Below are positions 1 to 62,391 of a stretch of 64,000 nt of DNA, piece by piece; positions within the stretch are counted from its first letter, which is position 1; each line of letters begins with the position of its first letter. The notes under the pieces are model-generated. The model was not told the origin of the DNA. It saw only the letters and a list, made by a program, of their open reading frames with translations, and searched no databases. A program made the translations under genes and the position numbers. The stretch comes from Sphingomonas sp. PAMC 26621 (GTDB lineage: Bacteria; Pseudomonadota; Alphaproteobacteria; Sphingomonadales; Sphingomonadaceae), in NCBI RefSeq assembly GCF_000251145.1, contig NZ_AIDW01000019.1:186001-250000 (forward strand), written 5' to 3'.

Positions 1-2428
1 GCGTGCCCGGTGCGACGTTCAGTTCGGTCCGTGCGGCGCGGACCTCTCCAATCAGGCGGATCAGCCAGTCGATCTCCTGGCTCGCAGCAGGATCGAGCGC
101 ACGCGCATCCGCCATCGGCCACTGCGCGACGATCAGGTTGCTCTCGCGCGGACCCATCGCGTTCCACAGTTCTTCGGTGATGAAGGGCATGAACGGGTGG
201 AGCAAAACGAGGATCTGGTCGATCACCCAGCCCGCGACCGCACGGGTCTCATCCGCGTCCGCGCCTGTGGCGGGCGCGTCCATCTGGCCGAGCACGGGCT
301 TGATCAGCTCGAGATACCAGTCGCAGAAGCGGCTCCACACGAACTGATACACCGCATTGGCAGCGCCATCGAACCGCAAGTCGGCAAGCGCGAGGTCGAC
401 AGCCTGAACGGTCGCGATCGTCTCTGCGATGATCCATTTGTTGACTGCGAGGGTGGCGCGCGGCGCTTCGAGCGTCTTGCTCGCGCCGATCCCGTTGCCC
501 TGCGCGAAACGGCACGCGTTCCACAGCTTCGTCGCGAAGTTGCGATAGCCCTCGACGCGCTTCTCATCCATCTTGATGTCGCGGCCCTGGCTTTCCATCG
601 CTGCCATGAAGAAGCGCAGCGCATCCGCACCGTACTGGTCGATCAGGCCGAGCGGATTGACCACGTTGCCCTTCGACTTGGACATCTTCGCGCCGTCTGC
701 CGCGCGGACAAGACCGTGCAAATACAGCGTCTTGAACGGAACATCACCCATGAAGTGCAAACCCTGCATCATCATGCGCGCATCCCAGAAGAACAGGATG
801 TCGAAGCCCGAGATGAGCACGTCGTTGGGGTAGCGACCGCCTAAAGTCTCCCTCTCCCCTTCAGGGGAGAGGGTCGGGGAGAGGGGCTGTCCTGCATTAC
901 CGAGGGCGACGCCGGTCGAAGCGTCCCCCTCTCCCCGGCCCTCTCCCCGGAGGGGAGAGGGAGGAGTTGAGCCATCCCAGCCCAGCGTCGCGAACGGCCA
1001 CAGCGCAGAAGAGAACCACGTGTCGAGCACGTCATTGTCCTGCCGCAGCGCGACGCCCTCGCCTGCCTGCGCCTGAGCTTCGGCCTCGGTCATTGCGACG
1101 AACACCGCCCCGTCCTCGGCGAACCACGCCGGAATCCGATGCCCCCACCACAGCTGGCGCGACACGCACCACGGCTGGATGTTCTCCATCCAGTTGAAAA
1201 ACGTCTTCTCCCACGTCTTGGGCACGAGCTTGATCGCACCCGAGCGGACCGCCTCGATCGCGGGCTTCGCCAGCGTCGCCGCATCGACATACCATTGGTC
1301 GGTCAGCCACGGCTCGATCACCACGCCCGAGCGATCGCCATACGGCGTCTGGATCGTGCGCGGTTCGGCGTCGTGCTCGGCGCCGTCCTTGTCAACGTGC
1401 GGGATCAGGAATCCCTCCGCCTTCAACTGCGCGACGACCGCCTTGCGCGCTTCCACGCTGGTCAGCCCGAGGAACGCATCGGGGATCAGGCCGTCCGCAA
1501 CCTGCACGACCTGCGCCTTGGCATCGAGCATGTTGAGCATCGTGCCCGCCGCCATGCCTGCGCGCTTGCCGACCTCGAAATCGTTGAAGTCATGCCCCGG
1601 CGTGATCTTGACCGCGCCCGACCCCAGTTCCGGGTCGGCATGGTCGTCGGTGATGATCGGGATCAGCCGCCCGGTGATCGGCAACCGGACCTGCTTGCCG
1701 ACGAGATGCGTATAGCGCTCGTCCGCAGCGTTCACCGCGACCGCCATGTCGGCGAGCATCGTCTCGGGCCGCGTCGTCGCGACCTCGATGAACCCCGAAC
1801 CGTCTTCGAACGGGTAGCGCAGGTGCCAGAAGCTCCCCTTGATCTCGCGCGTCTCGACCTCGAGGTCGCTGATCGCGGTGCCGAGGCCCGGGTCCCAGTT
1901 CACCAGCCGCTTGTCGCGGTAGAGCAGCCCTTCCTTGTGGAGATCGACGAACACCTTGAGGACGGCTTTGGAAAAGCCCTCGTCCATCGTGAAGCGTTCG
2001 TTCGCCCAATCCATCGAGCAGCCAAGGCGACGGAGCTGCTGCGTGATCTCGCCGCCGCTCTCTTCCTTCCACGCCCAGACCTTCTCGACGAACTGCTCGC
2101 GCGTGAAGTCGGTGCGCTTCTCGGGCGGGGTCAGGGCGCCCATCTGGCGCTCGACTACCATCTGCGTCGCGATGCCGGCGTGATCAGTGCCGACCACCCA
2201 CAGTGCATCCTTGCCCTTCAGCCGCGCATGGCGCGTCAGGATGTCCTGCAGCGTGTTGTCGAGCGCATGCCCGATGTGGAGCGACCCCGTCACGTTGGGC
2301 GGCGGGTTGACGATCGTCCACGGCTCGGCACCGGGGCGGTCGGGCCGGAACTGGCCGGTCGCCTCCCAATGCGCGTACCAGCGCTGTTCGAGTTCGGCGG
2401 GGTCGAAGGTTTTGGGGAGTTCGCTCAT
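1..2428 (-). CDS. valS: Valyl-tRNA synthetase, 3' end beyond the window
   Basis: Charges tRNA-Val with valine in the cytoplasm. The start ATG at 2426-2428 gives [10 protein letters not shown]. The class I HIGH motif is at residues 51-54 (SLHIGHALD) and the KMSKSKG motif is encoded near 669-689. The reading frame stays open to base 1, giving about 809 codons, so the C-terminal part is missing from the window. Between ATLGWDGS and [15 protein letters not shown] the frame runs through a palindromic repeat (848-964) that adds about 36-40 residues not expected in ValRS, such as [11 protein letters not shown] and [12 protein letters not shown], without breaking the frame. Conserved catalytic segments resume immediately after it. 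The family assignment is certain; whether the insert is tolerated in the folded protein is unknown. Confidence 0.96.
848..964. repeat. Bipartite palindromic repeat (family B) inside valS
   Basis: Two CTCTCCCC-type hairpin arms in inverted orientation (one reads CCCCTTCAGGGGAG, the other CCCCGGAGGGGAG) flank a core of about 50 bases. The same arm type recurs at 17451-17550. Codon phase on both sides agrees with the valS start, so the element is translated as part of ValRS. The structure resembles REPIN elements (two REP units in inverted orientation). No REP-associated transposase gene lies in this window. Confidence 0.85.
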
Positions 2429-14048: not shown

Positions 14049-14072
14049 CGTTTGACGCTGCCCCCTGCTGCC

Positions 14073-14177
14073 CTTCCCCGGCGAAGGCCGGGGCCCAGTA
14101 GCGATGGCCGAGGTAACGTAGCGCAATTCCCAGTTACCGTCCGTTCCGCAACTGGGCCCCGGCCTTCGCCGGGGAAG
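14073..14177. repeat. Bipartite palindromic element, family A, copy 1
   Basis: The left arm CTTCCCCGGCGAAGGCCGGG and its inverted copy (CCCGGCCTTCGCCGGGGAAG) enclose a core of about 50 bases. Each arm is itself a hairpin (CCCCGGC GAA GGCCGGGG). It lies between the convergent DUF2256 and DUF423 genes. Other copies are at 37969, 42021 and 59010, with unrelated core sequences. Confidence 0.9.
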
Positions 14178-14195
14178 CGCATTTCGGAATTTATG

Positions 14196-17450: not shown

Positions 17451-17550
17451 GCCCCTCCCCTTCAGGGGAGGGGATGGGGGTGGGGCGTGCCTCGCAGAGA
17501 CCTGCGCCCGGTTCAGCCCCACCCCAACCCCTCCCCTGAAGGGGAGGGGC
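17451..17550. repeat. Bipartite palindromic element, family B, copy 2
   Basis: GCCCCTCCCCTTCAGGGGAG and its inverted copy flank a core of about 50 bases that includes GGGGGTGGGGCGTG and its complement CAGCCCCACCCCAA. It lies between radA and cvpA. The arms are close to those inside valS (848-964). Confidence 0.88.
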
Positions 17551-17580
17551 TAAGGGAAATCAGACCCGCCTGAATGCCCC

Positions 17581-22022: not shown

Positions 22023-22072
22023 GCGCGTGTTGCGTGCCTGAGGGCCTTGTCGAGCGACCAGTCCCTTTTTCT

Positions 22073-22162
22073 GCCGTCATGCTGAACGTGTTTCAGCATC
22101 CATCGTTCAACGCTGGCCTGCCCCAGTGCCGCGGTGGACCCTGAAACGAATTCAGGGTGACG
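22073..22162. repeat. Tandem palindromic repeat, family D, copy 1
   Basis: It begins GCCGTCATGCTGAACGTG and ends CCTGAAACGAATTCAGGGTG. Two separate hairpins, TGCTGAA/TTCAGCA and ACCCTGAA/TTCAGGGT, flank a short core. It is the first of three near-identical units and the most diverged. Confidence 0.9.
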
Positions 22163-22190
22163 GCGGGTGAGGTAAGCGATCCCTTCCCGT

Positions 22191-22280
22191 GCCGTCATGC
22201 TGAACTTGTTTCAGCATCCACCGTACAACGCAGGCCTGCCCCAGTGGCGCGGTGGACCCTGAAACGAGTTCAGGGTGACG
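22191..22280. repeat. Tandem palindromic repeat, family D, copy 2
   Basis: It has the same two-hairpin structure as copy 1, with arms TGCTGAACTTGTTTCAGCA and ACCCTGAAACGAGTTCAGGG. It is about 118 bases downstream of copy 1, measured start to start. Confidence 0.9.
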
Positions 22281-22307
22281 CCGAGTGTGAGGCGAGCGTG
22301 TTCTTTC

Positions 22308-22398
22308 GCCGTCATGCTAAACTTGTTTCAGCATCCACCGTACAACGCAGGCTTGCCCCAGTGGCGCGGTGGACCCTGAAACGAGTTCAGGGTGACGC
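22308..22398. repeat. Tandem palindromic repeat, family D, copy 3
   Basis: Almost identical to copy 2, including the core CCACCGTACAACGCAGG; one base differs in the first hairpin (TGCTAAAC). The three copies fill the 400-base gap between the convergent glycosyltransferase and DUF2218 genes, in which I see no gene. Confidence 0.9.
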
Positions 22399-22422
22399 CA
22401 GGTGTGATGGAGACCTGCCCCC

Positions 22423-33230: not shown

Positions 33231-33262
33231 TGCTGTCTGACGACGTGCCCGCCTCACACCTC

Positions 33263-33358
33263 CGTCATTCCCGCGAAGGCGGGAATCCATTGATACTGCT
33301 GGCCGGCAATTCTGGGCCCGCCAGCCAGTATGGATCCCCGCCTCCGCGGGGATGACGG
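33263..33358. repeat. Bipartite palindromic element, family C, copy 2
   Basis: CGTCATTCCCGCGAAGGCGG and the inverted right arm (GATCCCCGCCTCCGCGGGGA, then TGACGG) flank about 50 bases. The inner part also pairs (TACTGCTGGC with GCCAGCCAGTA), so the whole element could fold as one long stem. It lies between the convergent lipoprotein and secA genes. Confidence 0.88.
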
Positions 33359-37919: not shown

Positions 37920-37968
37920 GCTAAGTTACCGCGAGCGCTTCTCAAAACTGGAGATTCCCAAGTTGCTT

Positions 37969-38073
37969 CTTCCCCGGCGAAGGCCGGGGTCCAATAGCGG
38001 AGGTTTCTCCAACTGGGCACAGCGCTCAACAACTCCAAGCTTCACTACTGGGCCCCGGCCTTCGCCGGGGAAG
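37969..38073. repeat. Bipartite palindromic element, family A, copy 2
   Basis: The arms are the same as in copy 1 (14073), with a different 50-base core. It lies between the convergent argJ and trxA genes, beside the trxA terminator. Confidence 0.9.
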
Positions 38074-38093
38074 CGGATGCGTGGGGTATGATT

Positions 38094-41973: not shown

Positions 41974-42020
41974 TGCGGCGCGCTCCGCTCTGGGCCCAGC
42001 CATTCAACGGCGAGAAACTT

Positions 42021-42124
42021 CTTCCCCGGCGAAGGCCGGGGCCCAGTAGCGAGCGGGTTGTTGGACAGGGCAGCGTCGCCCAACATCGCCCACCGCGACT
42101 GGGCCCCGGCCTTCGCCGGGGAAG
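42021..42124. repeat. Bipartite palindromic element, family A, copy 3
   Basis: Same arms as the other family A copies. It is located inside the addB-addA gap, so it would be transcribed with the operon and can fold in the mRNA. Confidence 0.9.
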
Positions 42125-42154
42125 CGTTCATGGGGAAAGCCTCCCTGCCCCCAA

Positions 42155-42224
42155 CCGTTCGTTTCGAGCGAAGTCGAGAAACCGGGCACAGCGCAGGTTT
42201 CTTGACTTCGCTCGAAACGAACGG
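42155..42224. repeat. Palindromic element, family E
   Basis: CCGTTCGTTTCGAGCGAAGT and its inverted copy (ACTTCGCTCGAAACGAACGG) flank about 25 bases. It is directly beside the family A element in the 282-base addB-addA gap, which holds no gene. Confidence 0.88.
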
Positions 42225-58985: not shown

Positions 58986-59009
58986 ATGCGTCCCCCTCTC
59001 CCGTAAGTA

Positions 59010-59114
59010 CTTCCCCGGCGAAGGCCGGGGCCCAGTAGCGAGACCTGAGATGGCGGGCGCTTGCGCTCGATACCCTCGGACATTTCGACTGGGCCGCGGC
59101 CTCCGCCGGGCAAG
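59010..59114. repeat. Bipartite palindromic element, family A, copy 4
   Basis: The left arm is intact; the right arm has several mismatches (GGGCCGCGGCCTCCGCCGGG). It lies between the convergent basic-protein and M2 peptidase genes. Confidence 0.85.
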
Positions 59115-59146
59115 CGCGCGTTAAAACAGCCGAGCGCCGCTACCCC

Positions 59147-62224: not shown

Positions 62225-62297
62225 GGCTTGGCTCCCCACGAAGACGATGGGATCGTCGCGCGGGTTCGCGGTTGGCGCAAGGGTCGCCTCCCCCACT

Positions 62298-62391
62298 CCG
62301 TCATTCCCGCGCAGGCGGGAATCCATTAGCGCCGACGCCCGCGATTGCAGACGGCAGCCAGTATGGATCCCCGCCTCCGCGGGGATGACGG
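62298..62391. repeat. Bipartite palindromic element, family C, copy 3
   Basis: The arms match the copy at 33263 (CGTCATTCCCGCGCAGGCGG and the inverted right arm). It lies between asd and the GFA gene. Confidence 0.88.

Follow-up and report, generated by a model that had tools for sequence, protein, structure and literature searches.

REPINs are non-autonomous elements that consist of two inverted hairpins separated by a short spacer, and the gene of the associated enzyme, a RAYT, is flanked by the same repeats. The palindromic element that lies within the valyl-tRNA synthetase gene (valS) of Sphingomonas sp. PAMC 26621 has the same layout of two hairpins plus spacer. It differs from REPIN/RAYT systems, the subject of PMC3116915 and PMC2817692, in that this genome (hereafter G000) is without a Y1 tyrosine transposase and in that the gene flanked by the repeats encodes a DUF559 or a GIY-YIG protein.

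In Rickettsia, palindromes known as RPEs are described as being read in frame within proteins (PMC10969869). The valS case is RPE-like in behaviour: palindromes of ~100-150 nt lie in frame within housekeeping proteins. It departs from RPEs in two respects, as many families here re-invade one loop of one synthetase and as G000 contains a candidate enzyme gene with the same ends.

The survey of Di Nocera et al. (2013, PMC3733652) lists REPs that lie within tRNA synthetase genes of X. oryzae, E. litoralis, and S. alaskensis, REPs that differ from one another yet occupy nearly the same position in Xanthomonas recB, and CGTC REPs in S. wittichii and S. chlorophenolicum; a dedicated mobilising enzyme for the CGTC class was reported there, in 2013, as missing. 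The GTAG and CGTC REPs of that survey resemble the present repeats in forming palindromic dimers within genes, tRNA synthetase genes included (PMC3733652). They differ from them in that the valS element, which belongs to a family that we term F1, bears neither tag, and in that CGTC-type palindromes here bracket GIY-YIG open reading frames (ORFs). Both E. litoralis and S. alaskensis are members of the Sphingomonadales.

VsrA of Caulobacter is described as a Vsr-like DUF559 protein of the PD-(D/E)XK superfamily, on which a DNA damage response depends in cells without the ScmA methyltransferase (PMC12907096). It thus shares the DUF559 domain with the nuclease unit reported below, but it is read as acting in mismatch repair, and the word stem “palindrom” is absent from that text (PMC12907096). 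No link of DUF559 or GIY-YIG genes to REPs was found in titles, abstract openings, and passages of PMC1564403, PMC10969869, and PMC12306157, a scope outside which most subscription journals and preprints fall; to the extent of that literature, the recurrent use of loops in valS and glyS and the pairing of the repeats with nucleases are new.

Results

An in-frame palindromic element within valS

The window, the whole stretch of DNA analysed, is 64,000 nt long. Within it, the valS coding sequence occupies positions 2-2428 on the minus strand, with its start at 2428 and its reading frame open at the window start. The encoded ValRS carries the Pfam domains tRNA-synt_1 and Anticodon_1, and its nearest solved structure, which is also the best fold match of its AlphaFold2 model, is T. 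thermophilus ValRS (1GAX). Between the codons for GW and YPND (833-976, minus strand), the linker measures 144 nt (48 residues), compared to 9-11 residues in relatives with an empty site (27-33 nt in 137 relatives).

A sequence-only reading of this DNA had proposed that the valS frame crosses a bipartite palindrome at this place, adding 36-40 residues close to the catalytic domain. The frame does cross it, without a stop throughout 848-964, and both the junctions and the added length proved correct (~37 residues beyond the empty form). The reading was right about the vicinity, but the site actually lies inside the catalytic-domain sequence, with DTWFSS on one side and KMSKS on the other, at about 1GAX residues 472-474. 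In the AlphaFold2 model (mean pLDDT 75, 38 sequences), residues 480-535 have pLDDT values below 50 and are devoid of secondary structure; the insert is predicted to form a disordered loop of ValRS. Among ten hand-chosen, in-frame members of one clade that share a common F1 insert, pN/pS was 0.27 both in the insert and upstream of it, and 0.05 downstream; the indels were 6 nt long. These values fit a translated and tolerated loop, and stop short of proof of translation.

The element itself (CTCCCTCTCCCC..GGGGAGAGGGAG, 848-964, 117 nt) is built of a spacer and, flanking it, two halves in inverted orientation that form one hairpin each. The left half (848-887), with the hairpin CTCCCTCTCCCCTTCAGGGGAGAGGG + TCGGGGAGAGGGGC, aligns over 40 columns with the left flank of a DUF559 ORF of the same genome (3 mismatches, 1-nt gap). 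The right half (925-966), which is the left half inverted, falls within a 48-column alignment with the right flank of that ORF (3 mismatches, 2-nt gap), and the central spacer of ~37 nt (888-924) takes the place that the nuclease ORF holds in the DUF559 unit. The RNA fold of 840-975 reaches -93.8 kcal/mol against -64.6 ± 4.3 for shuffled sequences (z = -6.8), a stability equalled by none of 200 shuffles.

The element belongs to a dispersed family with 59 blastn matches (E ≤ 1e-3) in the 4.77-Mb genome, which correspond to fewer places because many places match on both strands. It has the traits of a MITE, with inverted repeats at its termini, copies dispersed in the genome, and no ORF of its own; the unit of half-element, DUF559 ORF, and half-element in G000, with ends ~90% alike, would be a candidate autonomous partner. 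Traits of RPEs are present as well, namely a palindrome of ~100-150 nt inside an ORF with the frame kept, which supports the earlier view of an RPE-like repeat in valS. Neither end of 848-966 carries a GTAG tag, the nearest (830-833) consisting of native valS codons, and the CGTC tag and CCA tail are both absent from the F1 element. No target-site duplication was found in the filled and empty pairs compared, whose linkers are too diverged to show one, and no precise target was found among the inserts, whose junctions vary by several codons. The best explanation of the valS insert is a non-autonomous, MITE/REP-like bipartite palindromic element.

Contigs C57, C43, C54, C56, and C42 of G000 end within ~65 nt of a copy of the element; hairpins therefore seem to break assemblies.

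The valS loop among relatives

We compared the site across 80 named loci (the best 80 of 590) and 201 genomes of the same genus, G000 included. The site was readable in 194 of the 201; G188 and G165 have Ns there, G085 and G193 break at it, the contig of G137 ends before it, and G122 and G007 were left out. Aligning ValRS of related sphingomonads, the check proposed with the sequence-only reading, showed a variable site: the linker is empty in 137 of the 194 genomes and longer in 57, namely with a palindromic element in 54 (some degraded, e.g. G100), a half-element remnant in one (G113), and a short non-repeat linker in two (G180 and G075). Rather than one insert conserved identically in distant genera, relatives show an empty site, another repeat family, or an insert limited to a clade.

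Most palindromic elements (48 of 54) are in frame and free of stops. The other six comprise one with an in-frame stop (G114) and five that are frame-shifted (G139, G024, G162, G083, and G168). Sequencing or assembly errors seem to account for the shifted inserts, in which we noted an N gap, differences in homopolymer length, a poly-C/poly-G run, or a collapsed hairpin; given these defects, we do not claim programmed bypassing.

Named genomes from other genera also have an occupied loop (Sphingobium boeckii, L047; Rhizorhapis suberifaciens, L095; Qipengyuania flava, L109). Among Alphaproteobacteria outside the genus, 27 of 28 loci, taken as best-scoring and not at random, were empty, and the one exception (G402) holds a low-complexity insert that seems not to be palindromic. 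Non-repeat insertions in the valS loop are found in L097, L100, and G402.

When the 194 valS genes were scanned for 12-nt inverted repeats over 1440 nt upstream and 960 nt downstream of the site, 42 were located at this loop and 17 elsewhere. Among the latter, we read three as real elements at one C-terminal site (G200, G143, and G012) and 14 as chance self-complementarity of coding sequence. Repeat peptides at the C-terminal site were also present in L040, L045, and L076 among the 110 rows of the first alignment. The G000 insert does not stand alone: repeats have entered this loop recurrently, which makes it a hotspot, and glyS has another.

A further variable place in ValRS, site A, before DVLDTW, was considered as a second repeat hotspot and rejected, as it reads like an ordinary variable stretch without repeats. 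In 20 of the 110 rows (e.g. L037, L038, and L076), site A holds an extra stretch of ~27-57 residues (GP..DG..FVAETEEEAL..), which is absent in other sphingomonads.

Families and turnover

About five families can be told apart among the repeats by sequence motif, with labels corrected by hand for L129, L130, L125, L299, L267, L312, L126, L254, and L263. They are F1 (CCCTCTCCCC.., the family of the G000 valS element), F2 (peptide reading PSRLREGLGEG..PPASGRG), F3 (CCGTTCGTCCTGAGCGAAGTCGAAGG, peptide reading PFVLSEVEG..STSLDTNG), F4 (CCCCTCCCCTTCAGGGGAGGGG, peptide reading PSPSGEGxGVG), and F5, a loose group with the peptide reading HGEGD or similar.

On a FastTree phylogeny of 193 ValRS with the insert removed (L308 was dropped as too gappy), the minimum number of state changes was 41 with full family labels and 24 for occupied versus empty. 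Merging the states into empty, DUF559-type, and GIY-type left at least 29 changes, and F3, present at 11 tips, accounted for 11 changes. Because F1, F2, and F4 arms may replace one another by conversion, 41 overstates the number of new insertions, and 29 and 11 are the safer figures. In sphingomonads, several palindromic families unrelated to one another have repeatedly invaded the valS loop.

Even sister species differ: G000 carries F1 and its neighbour G022 carries F4. The F4 element of G022 sits within an apparent remnant of the 5′ end of F1; an old palindrome may therefore act as a landing pad.

The valS insert of L031 joins an F1-like 5′ half to an F4-like 3′ half, judged by peptide, and conversion between families is therefore suggested. 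In L090 and L290, the valS loop holds two F3 elements in tandem with the frame kept; in L090, the stretch that runs from DTWFSS to FFW counts 110 residues.

Copies in glyS and hrpB

The best other match to the valS element in G000 lies in glyS, in frame, between the stretches matching Pfam tRNA_synt_2f and DALR_1. The two copies share 90% identity across 120 nt, including the spacer, a hint of copying from gene to gene. Another in-frame copy is located in hrpB, between Helicase_C and the connector domain. Across 29 of the 30 best-scoring glyS loci, a choice that enriches for filled sites, the linker from LKKE to LSYTPEPAE carries F1, F4-like, and CGTC-type peptides in different relatives (families judged from peptides alone); nine of these rows (L483, L485, L487, L489-L492, L494, and L496) have a short, repeat-free linker.

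Palindromes bracketing small nuclease ORFs

The DUF559 unit of G000 spans C41:106509-106938 and its ORF C41:106579-106890. By blastn, both valS halves are ~90% alike to the two inverted flanks of this ORF, and on this similarity the flanks are the likely source of the halves of the valS insert.

The pattern was examined at 30 DUF559 loci from G000 and 20 relatives, of which 28 were used (L331, at a contig end, and L334, a weak match in a long frame, were dropped), and at 30 GIY-YIG loci from 20 hand-picked genomes, 11 of them chosen for having F3 in valS. Both sets were filled with the best-scoring loci first and are not random samples. A locus was counted as bracketed when its 300-nt flanks held an inverted repeat scoring ≥ 15; the threshold and the flank width (220, later 300 nt) were set after a first look at the data.

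Palindromes bracketed DUF559 in 26 of 28 loci and GIY-YIG in 23 of 30 (25 of 30 at ≥ 13). The exceptions are L329 (score 13) and L343 (9) for DUF559 and, for GIY-YIG, L356, L361, L367, L373, and L374 (below 13) and L355 and L358 (13). Only 2 of 600 random windows reached 15, one of them with a score of 144, and none of 30 ORFs for ParE toxin, small accessory genes from the same relatives as the DUF559 loci, was bracketed (Fisher test against ParE: 1.7e-14 for DUF559 and 1.7e-10 for GIY-YIG). With 220-nt flanks, 24 of 28 DUF559 loci scored ≥ 17, compared to 2 of 266 other ORFs.

Repeat similarity follows nuclease relatedness (Mantel r = 0.61 for DUF559, n = 26, and 0.68 for GIY-YIG, n = 23; 0 of 2000 permutations each) in a test that covers loci scoring ≥ 15 and leaves the kinship of the genomes uncorrected. 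The arms around DUF559 read as F1, F4, and F5, with F2-like arms around the DUF559 ORF of L330. GIY-YIG ORFs of the YILRCADGSYYTGHTD type pair with F3, and those of the VYIMASxRNGTIYIGVTSDL type with CGTC-type or CCCCGGCGAAGGCCGGGG palindromes. The domain is free of stops in 28 of 28 DUF559 and 29 of 30 GIY-YIG loci, and the residues typical of both nuclease folds, which we take to be the catalytic ones, are kept.

Beyond the genus, bracketing of DUF559 is weaker (13 of 28 loci, or 13 of 23 once two weak matches are set aside along with three domains embedded within long ORFs). For the CGTC-type GIY-YIG ORFs, a phylum-wide sample, from which the fragment L436 was dropped, gave 16 bracketed loci of 28, and 12 of 23 without G000 and G010 (which contribute 5 of the 28); the control, with flanks swapped between genomes, gave 5 of 194. 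Several arms in this sample are canonical CGTC REPs, e.g. CGTCATTCCCGCGAAGGCGGGAATCCAG at L408.

We traced the intergenic site orthologous to that of the G000 DUF559 unit by its upstream gene in 14 genomes, G000 included. The site is empty in G044 (34 nt), G061 and G113 have palindromes without a nuclease, and the other 11 have palindromes and DUF559 in at least two layouts. Such units come and go. For RAYT-type transposases, no PF01797 match was found in G000, and 6 of 21 sampled genomes have Y1_Tnp genes.

Other repeats in the window

Four inverted dimers of the form CCCCGGCGAAGGCCGGGG..CCAGTAGCG are located at 14068-14179, 37964-38075, 42016-42126, and 59005-59116; the same family brackets GIY-YIG ORFs in relatives (L366, L376, and L368) and in G000 (L415). 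Two CGTC-type REP dimers (CGTCATTCCCGCGAAGGCGGGAATCCA) are found at 33260-33358 and 62296-62391, an F4-type palindromic pair (CCCCTCCCCTTCAGGGGAGGGG) at 17452-17561, and a possible F3 element (CCGTTCGT..GAGC.AAGTCGA) at 42155-42224, adjoining the dimer at 42016-42126. A 108-nt unit occurs three times, near-adjacently, at 22062-22404 (spacing 117-118; 84-100% identical to the reference copy).

Discussion

The valS insert is probably a nuclease-encoding palindromic mini-element in its non-autonomous form, which persists in a disordered loop that can tolerate it, with the nuclease promoting its spread. On this model, the nuclease would promote the copying or insertion of its own palindromes, DUF559 proteins serving F1, F2, F4, and F5 and GIY-YIG proteins serving F3 and the CGTC-type palindromes. 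They might do so by nicking or cutting hairpin or cruciform DNA, or the target, after which repair would copy the element. Selection would purge most insertions in coding sequence, and the survivors would be those with a length that is a multiple of three, a frame open across both arms, and a loop with room for 30-50 additional disordered residues. Refuges of this kind would be the loops of valS and glyS; the model assigns no function to the insert peptide.

The nuclease ORFs may instead be passengers of the palindromes and not their movers. A rival reading makes these ORFs parasites that home into the spacers of pre-existing palindromes, which spread by other means. We consider this unlikely and nevertheless take it seriously: the ORF occupies the spacer position, one locus shows palindromes minus the ORF, and the ORF beside a complete palindrome, and GIY-YIG domains are described as first found in homing endonucleases (PMC1564403). 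However, the pairing of ORF clade with palindrome family suits co-mobility at least as well, and homing would leave the spread of the palindromes unexplained.

No more probable is the idea that the valS loop is a true target site of the insertion machinery, beyond mere tolerance. The scanned ValRS stretch holds 42 palindromes at the loop against three at one other site, elements of both nuclease types converge on it, and the F4 element of G022, in its apparent F1 remnant, allows for an old palindrome as landing pad. Yet the junctions spread over several codons without a visible shared target sequence, the glyS linker is different and unrelated, a common target is unlikely for unrelated nucleases, and the loop also accepts the non-repeat insertions of L097, L100, and G402. 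With families of two unrelated nuclease types arriving at the same loop, the hotspot is better explained by tolerance than by recognition of a target.

We rate lower still, as improbable, an ordinary REP or REPIN moved by a RAYT (Y1 tyrosine transposase), with the nuclease ORFs as bystanders. Two inverted hairpins with a spacer are indeed the REPIN layout, and Y1_Tnp genes do occur in the 6 of 21 sampled genomes, but G000 holds the dispersed family while having no PF01797 match, no GTAG stands at the foot of the element (the copy at 830-833 being native valS codons), and DUF559 and GIY-YIG ORFs are what the repeats bracket.

A functional insert, selected for its mRNA hairpin or its peptide, e.g. 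for slower translation or tuning of ValRS, is very unlikely. The hairpin is very stable, and the arms are kept in one clade with a pN/pS of 0.27, but the insert is missing in 137 of 194 relatives, families and peptides differ between sister species, disorder is predicted, and frame constraint together with recent copying can account for the remainder.

Misassembly of a hairpin into valS is hardly credible, since, against the Ns at the site (G188, G165, and G139), the contigs that stop or turn into unrelated sequence there or ahead of it (G085, G193, and G137), the frame shifts (G168, G162, G083, and G024), and the several G000 contigs that end at element copies, the G000 copy is in frame, the named assembly L031 (ValRS 94% identical) has a related in-frame insert, and genomes in one contig (e.g. 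G010, G135, and G154) have in-frame inserts as well.

The reading of the valS insert as a derivative of a nuclease-encoding mini-element may extend further. It is quite possible, and we put it forward tentatively, that many sphingomonad palindromic mini-repeats, and CGTC REPs across Pseudomonadota, belong, as non-autonomous members, to a class of tiny mobile elements that have the layout palindrome, nuclease ORF, inverted palindrome and are moved by small endonucleases instead of transposases, with DUF559 (Vsr/PD-(D/E)XK-like) proteins acting on one set of families and GIY-YIG proteins on the other, and that both types find refuge within genes by reusing the same disordered loops of ValRS and GlyRS-beta.

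The pairing of repeat family and nuclease clade provides named candidate enzymes that are directly testable. At the valS and glyS loops, nature offers replicated experiments in which selfish DNA enters essential proteins, and the many events at one loop reveal what a conserved enzyme can tolerate. They also bear on the origin of in-frame palindromes outside Rickettsia, where such repeats are best known.
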